A DNA stretch of 49,568 bases from Desulfobulbus sp. (GTDB lineage: Bacteria; Desulfobacterota; Desulfobulbia; Desulfobulbales; Desulfobulbaceae). The translations under genes and the position numbers were made by a program. The notes under the pieces are model-generated. The model was not told the origin of the DNA. It worked only from the letters and a program-made list of their open reading frames with translations, and searched no databases. Shown one piece after another: positions 7,018-49,568 of this stretch. Where the stretch lies: contig NZ_JAVBXR010000123.1 in NCBI RefSeq assembly GCF_030824455.1, positions 1 to 49,568 of the forward strand, in the 5' to 3' direction. Position 1 is the stretch's first letter, and every line of letters starts with the position of its first letter.

Positions 7018-7815
7018 CTATGACCGGGGGCGCGCCACGATGAACATGGGGTGATAGGTCAGCCGGACGCCCTGGTCGCCGGAAAATTGGCTTTTGTAGT
7101 CGGCGATGAAGGCGTTGACCTGCCGTCGCGTCCAGGCCTGCTGGCCAATGGAGTTGACGCCGGTGGCCCGCAGGTGCTGCAGCACTGCGATGGGTTCAGG
7201 ATACCACAGGGTTTCCCGCGCCTCTTCGGCGGCCAGGATCTCAAACTTCTCGCCGACCACGGTCTGCAGTTGCTCCAGATCGCGGTAGGCCAAGCCCACG
7301 CCGGTCACCGAACGGATTTCCCGTAGGTTGTCCTTGCCGTAGAGGGAAAAGGCGAGGACGCCGCCGGGCTGCAGGTGATGGTGGAATTTTCTGCACAGTT
7401 CCGGCAGATCGTAGACCCAGTGCAGGGTTGAGGAGGAGATGATCAGGTCGTAGCGCGACGGCAGGCGGACGGTTTCAATGTCGCCGGCCAGGAAGGTGAT
7501 GTTGTCGGCCAGGGCGCCGATCTTGCGGCACACGCACTGTTCAAAGGCGGCCACCAGATCGCTGATCGTGAGGTGGACAATCCCCGGATAGCGGGTCAGC
7601 ACCTTTTCGGTGAGCAGCCCGGTGCAACAGCCGATCTCGAGAATGTGCTGCGGCTGCAATCCGGGCGCGGCGTCGGCCAGCAAGGTCAGCAATCGTTCAG
7701 CCACCCGCTGCTGCACGGTGGCCTGCTGTTCATAGGTGGCTGCGGCCTGCTCGAAGCGGAGCCGAATGAGCTGTTTATCGGGAATCATGGGAATGGATCG
7801 GGTTACGTCGTACAT
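7018..7815 (-). CDS. bioC: Malonyl-ACP O-methyltransferase BioC
   Basis: About 265 residues. BioC methylates the free carboxyl of malonyl-ACP so that fatty acid synthase can build pimeloyl-ACP for biotin. The N-terminal IRLRFEQAAATYEQQATVQ block is typical of BioC. The SAM motif reads ILEIGCCTGLLTEKV, with cysteine where most methyltransferases have glycine. The post-motif region has DLIISSSTLHWV, matching the BioC LQWC-like segment. Start choice is uncertain: ATG 7815, ATG 7788 (MIPDKQ) and TTG 7833 are all possible and none has a strong Shine-Dalgarno. Pairing with bioD supports the assignment. No BirA-type operator was recognised upstream. Confidence 0.9.
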   Translation of the reverse strand: MYDVTRSIPMIPDKQLIRLRFEQAAATYEQQATVQQRVAERLLTLLADAAPGLQPQHILEIGCCTGLLTEKVLTRYPGIVHLTISDLVAAFEQCVCRKIGALADNITFLAGDIETVRLPSRYDLIISSSTLHWVYDLPELCRKFHHHLQPGGVLAFSLYGKDNLREIRSVTGVGLAYRDLEQLQTVVGEKFEILAAEEARETLWYPEPIAVLQHLRATGVNSIGQQAWTRRQVNAFIADYKSQFSGDQGVRLTYHPMFIVARPRS

Positions 7816-7927
7816 ATTTCCAGAGCCTCGCAACCCAACCGAGCAAAACGGCGCCGAGCGGATAGAATGGAACGATGAAAATTAAAACGCTTAACCTCTG
7901 CCTCTACACCAAAAAACAAGCTGTTGC

Positions 7928-8389
7928 TTAAAAACCCCAGAGCAGGCTGCCTTCCACCCACCCGGTTACGCCCTGGCCGTGCTCCACTTTGACCCAGCCG
8001 TCCTTCTTCTCTACAGTTTTAAACACCACCCCGTAATTGGCCTTGGCCACGACCTGCCCCTTGGTGTTCGGTTCGCTGCGGACATTGATCTGTTGCTCGG
8101 TTCCTTTATTGGCCTTGACGATCATGTGCGGCGTTTTCTGGGTGGTCTTTTTGTGGACCCAACCGGTGCTGCCTTCAAAATCTTTGACCTGCAGCCATTC
8201 GCCCTTGGAGTCAACAACCTCCACCGGAAAACCGTCGCCGATCTTCCACAGGATTTCCTGCTCGGTTCCAGGGCCGGAGCGCATGTTGATGTCCTCGCCG
8301 GCAATCGAAACCATCTCGGCGGCGAAGGCTGCCCGCGCCACCAAGAGGAGCGAAAAGGCAAGGGAAAAAACGGTGTGTCGCATGGTCAT
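7928..8389 (-). CDS. Secreted protein with two bacterial SH3 domains
   Basis: 153 residues. It begins with a signal peptide (MTMRHTVFSLAFSLLLVARA, cleavage probably after AFA) and then has two SH3b repeats of about 55 residues. The first contains INMRSGPGTEQEILWKI and GWVHKK, the second INVRSEPNTKGQVVAK and GWVEGSLLWGF. Such domains usually bind peptidoglycan or act as periplasmic interaction modules. The ATG overlaps the stop of the upstream polyferredoxin gene in an ATGA, so the two are translationally coupled. Specific role unknown. Confidence 0.85.
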   Translation of the reverse strand: MTMRHTVFSLAFSLLLVARAAFAAEMVSIAGEDINMRSGPGTEQEILWKIGDGFPVEVVDSKGEWLQVKDFEGSTGWVHKKTTQKTPHMIVKANKGTEQQINVRSEPNTKGQVVAKANYGVVFKTVEKKDGWVKVEHGQGVTGWVEGSLLWGF

Positions 8390-9315
8390 GACCGGGATCC
8401 TTGCTGCATGGGTTCATCGGACGACGCCGGCGCGCCTGGCGTCATGCGCACGCCAAAACCGGCGATGTCGAGGGTGAGCGCGCCGGTTGGGCATGCCTCG
8501 GTGCAGCAGCGCAGGCAGCGAATGCATTCGGCGCTGTTGGGCGTTTGCTCAACCCGGATGTCCACCGGGCAGACCCGGCGGCATGCCCCGCACTTTGTAC
8601 AGGCATCCACGTTAAATTTCAACTGAATCAGGCTGAACCGGTTGAACAGGCCGTAAAAAGCCCCCAGCGGACACAGGGTGCGGCAGAAGGGACGTGAGGA
8701 CACGACGCTCCACAGGAGCACCGCCGCCAGCACGATCAACTTGTGCAGGTAGAGGAGGCCGGCGGCCGGCCGCAGATCCGGACTCAGCAGCAGCATGGGC
8801 ACGCCGGCCTCAAGCGTGCCGGCCGGACAGAGGAATTTGCAGAACCAGGGTTTGCCCATGCCGAAGCTGTCGACCACCACCAGCGGCAGCACCACCACCA
8901 TCAGCAGCAACACCAGGTACTTGCCCCACCGCAGCATCCTAGGAACGCTGTATTTGGGCGAGGGAATCCGGTGCAGCCACTCCTGGAGCAACCCAAAAGG
9001 GCAGGCCCAACCGCAGATGAATCGGCCGCATAGGGTCCCCAAGAGGCCCATGCAGCCCAGGACATAGGTTCCCACATAGATCTGCCCGGCCTGCAGCGAC
9101 AGCCGCACGCCCATGAGCAGTTGTTGCAGGCTGCCGATGGGACAGAAGGTGGTGGCGGCCGGGCAGGAATAGCAGTTGAGGCCGGGCGAGCAGAGCACCT
9201 TCAACGGCCCCTGATACAGCGTGCCGCTGACCGGAAAGCCCCAGAAGCCGTTGGTGAGGAAAAACCAGAGGACCTGGATCCATTTACGCAGGGTTTCCAT
9301 GGGCGGCGCGCTCAT
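8386..9315 (-). CDS. NapH/CcoG-like membrane polyferredoxin
   Basis: About 309 residues from the ATG at 9315, which overlaps the stop of the preceding small gene in an ATGA. A longer open frame upstream (to 9594) is out of context and is not used. There are four to five hydrophobic helices, one with LVLLLMVVVLPLVVVDSFG. Cys-Pro clusters follow in series: CGRFICGWACPFG, FCKFLCPAG and FCRTLCPLG. Two [4Fe-4S] ferredoxin motifs come at the C-terminus: CTKCGACRRVCP and CIRCLRCCTEACP. This is the architecture of quinol-linked or trans-membrane electron carriers such as NapH, NosR and RdxA. It probably passes electrons from the membrane to a periplasmic redox partner; the partner is not identified. 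Confidence 0.85.
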   Translation of the reverse strand: MSAPPMETLRKWIQVLWFFLTNGFWGFPVSGTLYQGPLKVLCSPGLNCYSCPAATTFCPIGSLQQLLMGVRLSLQAGQIYVGTYVLGCMGLLGTLCGRFICGWACPFGLLQEWLHRIPSPKYSVPRMLRWGKYLVLLLMVVVLPLVVVDSFGMGKPWFCKFLCPAGTLEAGVPMLLLSPDLRPAAGLLYLHKLIVLAAVLLWSVVSSRPFCRTLCPLGAFYGLFNRFSLIQLKFNVDACTKCGACRRVCPVDIRVEQTPNSAECIRCLRCCTEACPTGALTLDIAGFGVRMTPGAPASSDEPMQQGSRS

Positions 9316-46978: not shown

Positions 46979-47932
46979 ATGGAAGAAACTATGTCGCATG
47001 AACGTGCAAGGCCGCGTTCAGGCGAACGGAGTACAACGATGGCGCCAGCTATGGACACGATTTTAGACATGCGTGACGTGATAATGGGCAAGGATGAAGC
47101 AGAGGCTGCGGTGGCGACCAAGGCGCGCAAGGTGGACCGCGATCAGCGGACAACCGTGGGCGTGCCCTTTGTTGAAGAGCCGCGCATGATCTGCCGCGAG
47201 GTCAACGTTTTTTACGGCGACAAACACGCCATCAACAACGTCAGCATCGACGTGGGCAAAAACGAGGTTTTGGCGATGATCGGGCCGTCGGGCTGCGGCA
47301 AGTCGACCTTTCTTCGCTGTCTCAATCGGATGAACGACACCGTGGCCAGTTGCCGGGTGACCGGCGAAATCCTGCTCGACGCGCTCAACATCTACGACAA
47401 AAAGGTCGACGTGGTGCCGTTGCGGGCCCAGGTGGGCATGGTCTTTCAGAAGCCCAACCCCTTTCCCAAGTCCATCTTCGACAACGTCGCCTATGGGCCC
47501 AAAATCCACGGTTTGGTCAACAACAAAACCGAACTGAACGACGTGGTGGAGGATTCACTGAAAAAAGCGGGTCTGTGGAACGAGGTCAGCGACCGGCTCG
47601 ATCAGCCCGGCACCGGCCTTTCCGGCGGTCAGCAGCAGCGGCTGTGCATTGCCCGGGCCATTGCGGTGCGGCCGGAGGTGATTCTTATGGACGAGCCCTG
47701 TTCAGCGCTTGACCCCATCGCCACCGCCACGGTCGAGGATCTGATCACCGAACTGAAAGAGCACTACACCATCGTCATCGTCACCCACAACATGCAGCAG
47801 GCGGCCCGGGTTTCCCAGCGCACCGCCTACTTTCATCTTGGCGATCTGGTTGAGGTCGGCCCCACCGACCGCATCTTCACCAACCCTCGCCACCAACTGA
47901 CCGAAGACTACATCACCGGCCGTTTCGGCTGA
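46979..47932 (+). CDS. pstB: Phosphate ABC transporter ATPase PstB
   Basis: 317 residues from ATG 46979, which has a GAGGGTGGA ribosome site; ATGs at 46991 and 47041 are alternatives. Walker [20 protein letters not shown], the PstB-typical [21 protein letters not shown]-loop, signature [15 protein letters not shown] and Walker [17 protein letters not shown] are complete. About 60 residues at the N-terminus (to [12 protein letters not shown]) exceed the usual 250-260-residue protein. phoU does not follow. The 3' end overlaps the convergent methyltransferase gene by 20 bases. Confidence 0.95.
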
Positions 47933-48983
47933 TCTGCGGGTCAAAGGCCCGCAGGGCTTCTTCGGCGCGGGCAAAGGCCAACAGGGTCGAACCCGACGGC
48001 AAGTGCCGCGTGCTGTGGTGGGGCAAGCCGAAGCGGCAGGCGGCGGCAACGATCTCGCTTTGGCGAGGGGCGGTGCCGTTGTAGGTGTTGAGCATCATGT
48101 GCAGGTCGTAGAGCGCGCCGCGCCAGTCGGCGTCGGCAAAGAAATCGTGAACAAGCAGGACGCCGTTGGCCGAGGTTTTGGCCGCCGCCTTGCGCAGCGC
48201 CCGCAGACTTTCCTCTGCGCTCTGACAGTGCAGGACGTTGGACAGCAGGACAATGTCGCAGCTCTGTTCGGCAATGCGGTCAAAATCCGAGGGGCCGTCG
48301 TCCAGCAGATTGCAGCCGCACCAGCTGATCCGCGCGCGCAGCGGATGCAGTTGCGGGTGGAGATCTTCGGCGGCGACGATGTCCGGCAAATCGCAAAAAT
48401 GAGCGGACCATCCCGGGCTGCGCTGTAAAAATTCCCGCAGGTAGGCGCCTGATCCTGCGCCGATATCAAGCATCACGCCGCTGGCCGCCAGGTTGGGGCA
48501 GCATTGCCACAACTCCCCGGCGCGTACCCCAGCCGCCTCATCCATGGCCCCAAGATACCGCTGCCGAGCCCGGTGCAGCTCTTCCGGAGGCAGACCGTCT
48601 GCCGCAAAAATCCGTTTTCCCCCCTGCAAGGTAGTCTCCAGCTGACTCCAGGAATCGATTAACTGTTGCTCGAAGTCCAGGGTCTGTTGCTGGCGACAGG
48701 GTGAACTGCTGTGGAGATAGGGTTGGGCGCAGCGGCTGAAGTCGTAGCGGTTTCCCTTTTTGGCGAGCAGTCCCAGGGCGCACAAACAGTCGAGAAGGCG
48801 TTGGCCGTAGGCAGAATCCCAGCCAAGTCGGGCGCAAAGCTCCGCGCTTGAGGCGGGCCGCTCCGCCATACAGGCAAACAAGCCCGACCGATGCGCGGTC
48901 ATCAGCACCGCCGAGATCCGGTAGCCGGTCAGCAGGTCGGAGAAGCGGAGAAACTCGGAGCCAGGCTCCGAGTCGGGCATCAT
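47913..48983 (-). CDS. SAM-dependent O-methyltransferase, possible BzaC-like
   Basis: 356 residues. N-terminal winged-helix dimerisation domain (about 12-90: [40 protein letters not shown]), then a class I methyltransferase domain. It has motif [21 protein letters not shown], the acidic motif [31 protein letters not shown] and VLLVHDFF. This is the plant-O-methyltransferase/hydroxyneurosporene-methyltransferase architecture. It overlaps cobT by four bases (ATGA). BzaC, the methyltransferase of anaerobic benzimidazole synthesis, has this architecture and is found next to cobT in bza clusters, so a role in methoxylating the cobamide lower ligand is plausible but unproven. Confidence 0.75.
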
Positions 48984-49568
48984 CCCTCCTGGGCGTTGCG
49001 AATGCCCACTTCGGCAAAGGTCTTGATGTCCGCCAGCACCCGGGTGGCGGCGTCGAGCAGGTGCATGGCCACCGCCGCGCCGGTGCCCTCGCCCAGGCGG
49101 AAATCGAGATTCAGCAGCGGCGTGAGGCCCATCCGCTCGAGCATGCAGCGGTGGCCGATTTCCACCGAGTTGTGGCTGGCAAAAAGATAGGCCTTGGCCG
49201 CCGGGGCCAGTTCGCAGGCGATCAAGGCGCCGGCGGTGGAGATCAACCCGTCGCAGAGCACCGGAATGGAGCGCGCGGCCGCGCCGATCACCAGCCCGGC
49301 CAAACCGCCGATTTCAAAGCCGCCGACCTTGGCCAGCACGTCCAGGGCGTCGGCGGGATCAGGGCGATGCAGCGCCAGAGCCTGTTCGATCACCCGGATT
49401 TTGTTGGCCAGCATGGCGTCGTCGATGCCGGTGCCCCGGCCGGTGACGCTGCGCACCGGCAGCCCCGAGAAGGCGGCGATGATCGCCGACGAAGGCGTGG
49501 TGTTGCCGATGCCCATGTCGCCGGCGCCGAGCAGATCCAGCCCTTCTTCATCCGCCAGCTGATTGACG
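48980..49568 (-). CDS. cobT: CobT phosphoribosyltransferase, truncated by window edge
   Basis: About 195 C-terminal residues of nicotinate-nucleotide:dimethylbenzimidazole phosphoribosyltransferase (full length about 350), which activates the lower-ligand base of cobamides. The frame is open through the right edge, so the ATG at 49516 is internal. Motifs: [42 protein letters not shown], and the catalytic-glutamate segment [20 protein letters not shown]. The stop overlaps the methyltransferase start, so the two are co-translated. Confidence 0.96.

Follow-up and report, generated by a model that had tools for sequence, protein, structure and literature searches.

A probable cobalamin-riboswitch-led bzaF-cobT-bzaC operon in Desulfobulbus, predicted to yield a methoxylated cobamide

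The DNA analysed here (the window) is the entire contig C97, 49,568 nucleotides long, of a Desulfobulbus assembly (4.03 Mb, 127 contigs, 92% complete). At its right-hand end a gene for an O-methyltransferase (MT) follows an incomplete cobT, and joining the window to contig C87 of the same genome gives the order cobalamin riboswitch, terminator-like hairpin, bzaF, cobT, MT. This is probably a riboswitch-led bzaF-cobT-bzaC operon, with 5-methoxybenzimidazolyl cobamide (Factor IIIm) as its predicted product. The features concerned are listed below (C, contig; L, locus; G, genome).

Window 47913-48983, minus strand: MT, BzaC-type O-methyltransferase, 356 residues, PF08100 + PF00891, predicted substrate 5-hydroxybenzimidazole or its alpha-ribotide, predicted catalytic His252
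Window 48980-49567, minus strand: cobT, C-terminal 195 codons with the GEGTG motif, PF02277 + TIGR03160; the N-terminal rest is on C87
Window 48980-48983, minus strand: ATGA, the 4-base overlap of the cobT stop codon and the MT start codon
Window 48985-48990, minus strand: AGGAGG, Shine-Dalgarno-like, before the MT start
Window 49532-49568, minus strand: 37-base exact overlap with the end of C87
C87:52258-52445 (= L008:12259-12446): cobalamin riboswitch, 73.7 bits (cut-off 31.5)
C87:52538-53866: bzaF, directly upstream of cobT, 442 residues, ThiC family, PF01964 563 bits

The first-pass annotation of the window had described cobT and MT as lying on the same strand and sharing four bases, and the ATGA at 48983-48980 verifies this. 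The spacing of the AGGAGG fits a second ATG of MT (48980-48978) at least as well; the choice of start is our inference. By open reading frame coordinates the 4-base overlap is kept in our genome and in L044, L045, L046, L047 and L137; it measures 7 bases in L042 and differs in more distant members of the MT clade. The cobT product scores 252 bits with PF02277 and 255 bits with TIGR03160, the latter under the full-length cut-off of 319 because the gene is truncated by the end of the contig. The N-terminal half of cobT lies at the end of C87; an exact overlap of 37 bases links it to the window, and the join yields a gene for a full-length CobT of 354 residues.

The same annotation had proposed a search upstream of cobT for bzaA/B or bzaF, and bzaF lies directly there on C87, under the riboswitch. 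Its product is a ThiC-family radical S-adenosylmethionine (SAM) protein, linked to cobamide genes and distinct from the thiamine ThiC of the genome. There are two ThiC-family genes in the genome, 40% identical to each other: the C87 copy (563 bits) and a copy on C32 (648 bits), the last of a row that we read from the sequences as thiG-thiH-thiF-thiE-thiC, behind a thiamine pyrophosphate (TPP) riboswitch. In a tree of 57 ThiC-like proteins (a quick method, with long branches flagged) the C87 protein falls with 23 relatives on one side of a branch that has 100% support in the SH-like approximate likelihood ratio test (SH-aLRT), and this 24-row BzaF group is separate from ThiC, BzaA and BzaB. The C87 gene is therefore read as BzaF, a predicted 5-hydroxybenzimidazole (5-OHBza) synthase, and not as the thiamine enzyme.

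The cobalamin riboswitch lies about 90 bases ahead of the bzaF start, and the interval holds a stable hairpin with a T-run behind it (folding energy of the stretch -25.7 kcal/mol). All 18 of the 18 scanned loci with bzaF or bzaAB have a cobalamin riboswitch; in 17 of them it precedes the first 5-OHBza-synthase gene by at most about 300 bases, and in L142 by about 1.3 kb. The order in L237 is radical SAM gene, MT and cobT, then the riboswitch between cobT and bzaF. A further match was obtained in L054, a locus without bzaF where MT stands with a BzaD-like gene and a second radical SAM gene.

The MT has the two-domain O-methyltransferase layout that the first-pass annotation had read from it: PF08100, the dimerisation domain, scores 40.9 bits and PF00891 scores 36.8 bits, each above its gathering cut-off. 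An AlphaFold model from nine sequences [mean predicted local distance difference test score (pLDDT) 76, with several stretches below 50] was compared with the PDB by Foldseek and matched O-methyltransferases of the same fold (best 3mcz, E 1.2e-19). The conserved His of this fold is present as His252, its predicted catalytic base; we take the catalytic role from that of the fold family's His in plant O-methyltransferases. As His252 occurs in all 70 rows of the MT tree described below, it marks the fold family and does not single out BzaC. In the NCBIfam scan of the MT, BchU reached 18.1 bits (cut-off 276) and UbiE/MenG were not listed at E <= 0.01; no NCBIfam BzaC model matches the window MT or the L180 MT introduced next.

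As a stand-in for a characterised BzaC, 395 genomes of the phylum were searched with the BzaB model TIGR04386, and two scored above its cut-off. G613 carries bzaA-bzaB-cobT-MT (locus L180, whose MT is row L203 of the tree), and G541 carries bzaA-bzaB-cobT with no MT following. The window MT is 35% identical to the L180 MT over 303 residues. With the L180 MT as query over 390 genomes, the MT of G064 ranks sixth and that of the window seventh; the five top ranks are L180's own MT, three MTs beside bzaF and a fusion of MT to DUF2284 in G412, beside a BzaD-like gene. The MT tree has 70 rows, from 100 sequences extracted, after removal of 29 duplicates and one fragment (L058, G248); each genome search contributed at most its 30 best loci to the trees, row labels were set by hand and the root was not inferred. 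A branch with 99/97 support (bootstrap/SH-aLRT) unites 33 of the 70 rows, namely the 20-member clade of the window MT, the L180 MT, seven other bza-linked MTs and five MTs of family f15. The window MT thus groups with the methyltransferase of a bzaA-bzaB-cobT-MT operon rather than with other O-methyltransferases. The 33 rows classed as non-bza have no bza-type neighbour within 2.5-4 kb each (eight of them also within 6-11 kb). Two residues follow the division closely: Asp293 is present in 37 of 37 bza-side rows and in none of the 33 others, Asn249 in 37 of 37 and in one of 33. The suggestion that the MT is a BzaC gains support from this grouping, as from the location of its gene in an operon with a 5-OHBza synthase and cobT; the contrary outcome named in the first-pass annotation, a position among quinone or secondary-metabolite enzymes, was not seen. 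The MT was rejected as an enzyme of either kind or of the BchU type, with scores far under the cut-offs and trees that place it on the bza side. That the f15 MTs (32-34% identity) are unrelated was likewise rejected: their genes adjoin an NAD-synthetase-like gene, but the MTs fall on the bza side in genomes with BzaF.

Among the 257 genomes of the class, nine (our own included) encode an MT at least 46% identical to that of the window, against 131 with a BzaF-like match (E <= 1e-180, identity at least 62%); this MT is thus missing from most genomes that have BzaF. Of the nine close MTs, six stand in bzaF-cobT-MT order (our own genome counted via C87); the other three (G092, G093, G151) stand alone, with BzaF elsewhere in each genome. 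A scan of named genomes gave 17 MT loci, several of them on contigs already present among the G genomes, and the hosts include Desulfobulbus rhabdoformis, Desulfogranum mediterraneum, three Desulfoluna species, Desulfatitalea and a Kiritimatiellia metagenome-assembled genome (MAG). The strains D. rhabdoformis DSM 8777 and D. mediterraneum DSM 13871 both have the whole operon. With duplicates merged, 15 of the 20 members of the MT clade show the bzaF-cobT-MT order (in L044 with bzaF truncated at the end of its contig), and L141 has bzaF-MT without cobT; the pairing of MT with cobT is more than chance. The three-gene order spans Desulfobulbaceae, Desulfosarcinaceae, Desulfolunaceae and the Kiritimatiellia MAG, and bzaF-MT occurs in a Desulfococcaceae MAG. 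All 17 class genomes with a placed bza-side MT have BzaF against a background of 132 of 257 (hypergeometric 7e-6, ignoring relatedness); this count includes G049, whose bzaF is cut by a contig end, and excludes G248 (93% complete), which has an MT fragment and no BzaF match at E <= 1e-180.

The complete BzaD/BzaE route to 5,6-dimethylbenzimidazole was not found in our assembly. The genome (G000) gave no match at E <= 1e-10 either to the BzaD model TIGR04385 or to the BzaE candidate, which is the second radical SAM gene of L054 (rSAM494), so labelled by position only. In 18 genomes searched with TIGR04385 none passes the cut-off of 450 bits; 13 have weaker matches, the strongest in G062 (410 bits). 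The second radical SAM gene gave matches above 360 bits in only four of 23 genomes (G062, G232, G461, G370). In G055, a single contig that is 100% complete and carries the same operon, the BzaD model matched nothing and the radical SAM query gave no more than a weak partial match. As neither BzaD nor BzaE was found, 5-methoxybenzimidazolyl cobamide should be the end of the pathway. Dimethylbenzimidazole made by BluB was rejected, all matches to the BluB model being below cut-off in 10 of 10 genomes tried; the same search gives matches in all 14 control genomes, so weak matches carry no meaning.

From the genes we would expect the following course. When cobamide is scarce, the riboswitch would permit transcription of bzaF-cobT-bzaC. 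BzaF would convert 5-aminoimidazole ribotide to 5-OHBza, and the CobT of the operon would join this base to ribose-phosphate taken from nicotinate mononucleotide. The MT, as BzaC, would use SAM to O-methylate the 5-hydroxyl, either on the base or on its ribotide, His252 being the predicted general base. CobT would act before BzaC; the title of a 2020 study by Mathur has CobT and BzaC regiospecifically activate and methylate 5-OHBza. The loop would be completed, giving Factor IIIm, by CobS and a CobC-like enzyme, whose genes stand with another cobT on C122 (the CobC name is our reading of the sequence), and without BzaD or BzaE the pathway would end there. The base, the substrate, the order of CobT and BzaC, the final cobamide and regulation by the riboswitch are all predictions of this kind.

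Several observations weigh against this reading. Desulfobulbus propionicus is reported to contain a 5-methylbenzimidazolyl cobamide. The canonical anchor of the MT tree is a single operon-defined row (L203) and not a characterised enzyme, and the node that joins it with 12 other bza rows has 96/67 support only. The MTs of bza clusters are not one tight family: L210, L213, L226 and L229, which adjoin cobT and an rSAM494-type gene, make up a separate group beside the 99/97 branch, outside the 33 rows, and the branch that splits all 37 bza-side rows from the 33 others has 88/89 and is not starred. Within the MT clade itself, L040, L041, L043 and L144 have no bza neighbours in the stretches examined, and no riboswitch was found near the first three of these, the solitary MTs that were scanned. 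Some genomes with the operon have below-cut-off matches to the BzaD model (G052 182 bits, G054 150, G064 152), and a BzaD or BzaE gene may have been missed in our own assembly, which is 92% complete.

Some of these points bear on a reading in which the MT is a true BzaC and 5-methoxybenzimidazole only an intermediate, converted to 5-methylbenzimidazole or another base by an unrecognised enzyme before or after attachment. The Desulfobulbus propionicus cobamide and the weak BzaD-model matches would fit, as would the rSAM494-type gene beside MT in L142, L235, L237, L213, L226 and L229; but our own genome has neither a BzaD-model nor an rSAM494 match at E <= 1e-10, and the complete G055 has the same operon with the near-empty search result given above. 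We regard such a further conversion as rather unlikely.

It is very unlikely that the MT methylates some other target (a different phenol, a carbon or an N atom) and lies in the operon for the sake of regulation only. The fold family is broad, its PDB neighbours including melatonin, phenazine and antibiotic methyltransferases, and three relatives of the MT stand alone in other contexts. Yet the genomes of these three still have BzaF, the MT groups with the bzaAB-cobT-MT enzyme and has its residues in common, and the bzaF-cobT-MT or bzaF-MT order recurs in the families listed above and in the Kiritimatiellia MAG. The idea that the upstream gene is an ordinary thiamine ThiC, beside cobT by coincidence, is nearly refuted. 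The NCBIfam ThiC model NF009895 does score 552 bits on it, above a cut-off of 410, and automatic annotation is likely to name it thiamine ThiC for this reason; but the TPP riboswitch and the thi row belong to the C32 copy, and the upstream gene has the cobalamin riboswitch and a separate, fully supported group. The thiamine assignment was rejected on these grounds.

Which bacteria are able to use a particular cobamide depends on its lower ligand. BzaF alone predicts a hydroxylated cobamide, and bzaF-cobT-bzaC provides a gene-based prediction of 5-methoxybenzimidazolyl cobamide in Desulfobulbus rhabdoformis, Desulfogranum mediterraneum and Desulfoluna species. As BzaF is likely to be named ThiC by NCBIfam-based annotation and no NCBIfam model was found for the MT, such operons are easily missed. 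According to two papers, BzaF of Geobacter sulfurreducens makes 5-OHBza, and bzaF with cobT gives the 5-OHBza cobamide (PMC8123684, PMC7726332); the window operon likewise has BzaF as single 5-OHBza synthase with cobT but adds the MT, so that a methoxylated base is predicted. The bzaA-bzaB-cobT-bzaC genes of Moorella thermoacetica make 5-methoxybenzimidazolyl cobamide (PMC8123684). The Moorella operon shares with ours cobT followed by an O-methyltransferase gene and the same predicted product, and its layout recurs within the phylum of the window in L180, which holds a relative of the window MT; it differs in using the BzaA + BzaB pair, whereas the window operon uses a single BzaF. The likeness of the Moorella BzaC to the window MT is one of operon layout, the sequence comparison (35%) being only with L180. 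The window operon is thus predicted to cross Geobacter's bzaF-cobT with Moorella's bzaAB-cobT-bzaC. The BzaD/BzaE route to 5,6-dimethylbenzimidazole, as given in PMC8123684, is alike in its first steps and BzaC, and differs in the BzaD and BzaE that our assembly does not match. The appendix of strains in the same paper includes D. propionicus, and that passage gives no base. No description of a bzaF-cobT-bzaC operon was found in the portions of the literature that could be searched; bzaF + bzaC may already be in the gene-combination table of Shelton 2018. The parts are known, and their combination and spread look undescribed in the searchable literature.

Related loci combine the MT with other radical SAM genes. 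G064 carries bzaF-cobT-MT; G062, which shares its genus code, carries bzaF-cobT with no MT and has, at another place, an MT-DUF2284 fusion with a BzaD-like gene and the second radical SAM gene behind it; on the reasoning used above, dimethylbenzimidazole would be the base made by G062. Six loci (L054 and L142, checked by Pfam; L055, L234, L235 and L236, by similarity) have a BzaC-type MT with DUF2284, a predicted metal-binding domain, fused to its C-terminus, adjoining BzaD-like and/or second radical SAM genes. L142 and L235 have MT-DUF2284 with the second radical SAM gene (rSAM494 type) and no adjacent BzaD, and L236 has MT-DUF2284 with a BzaD-like gene alone. An unfused MT stands with cobT and the second radical SAM gene in L237 and likewise, in short stretches, in L213, L226 and L229. 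In L142, L235, L237, L213, L226 and L229, then, MT and the second radical SAM gene stand together, in most cases along with cobT and bzaF, and BzaD is not adjacent; the BzaE naming of that gene rests on position, and the search for BzaD in these loci covered neighbours only. We know of no pathway for 5-methylbenzimidazole, a natural lower ligand. It is possible, though doubtful, that this phylum and the Kiritimatiellia MAG mix bza genes freely, the sets of these six loci making 5-methylbenzimidazole and that of the window the methoxylated cobamide. If so, the form of B12 made would differ even between G062 and G064, which belong to one genus.

Some other genes were seen alongside. A third cobT paralogue of our genome (L002:1441-2538, C125:27519-28616) has GVGAG where the other motif-matched CobTs have GEGTG, the Glu of which we take to be the catalytic base; it is preceded by a gene for a 464-residue protein, on which neither Pfam nor NCBIfam gave a match at E <= 0.01. 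In L180, bzaA-bzaB-cobT-MT is followed at 7706-8836 by a gene for a 376-residue protein, which matches nothing in Pfam at E <= 0.001 and has a single weak NCBIfam match. The bza-side MTs of L048, L049 and L050 (G250, G247, G255) stand directly after a gene that reads as NAD-synthetase-like, with no bzaF in the stretch; nicotinate mononucleotide is the co-substrate of CobT. In the window, the 3' end of the MT gene overlaps by 20 bases (47913-47932) a convergent ABC-transporter ATPase gene (pstB-like), which ends a row of genes that read as a phosphate-transport system.

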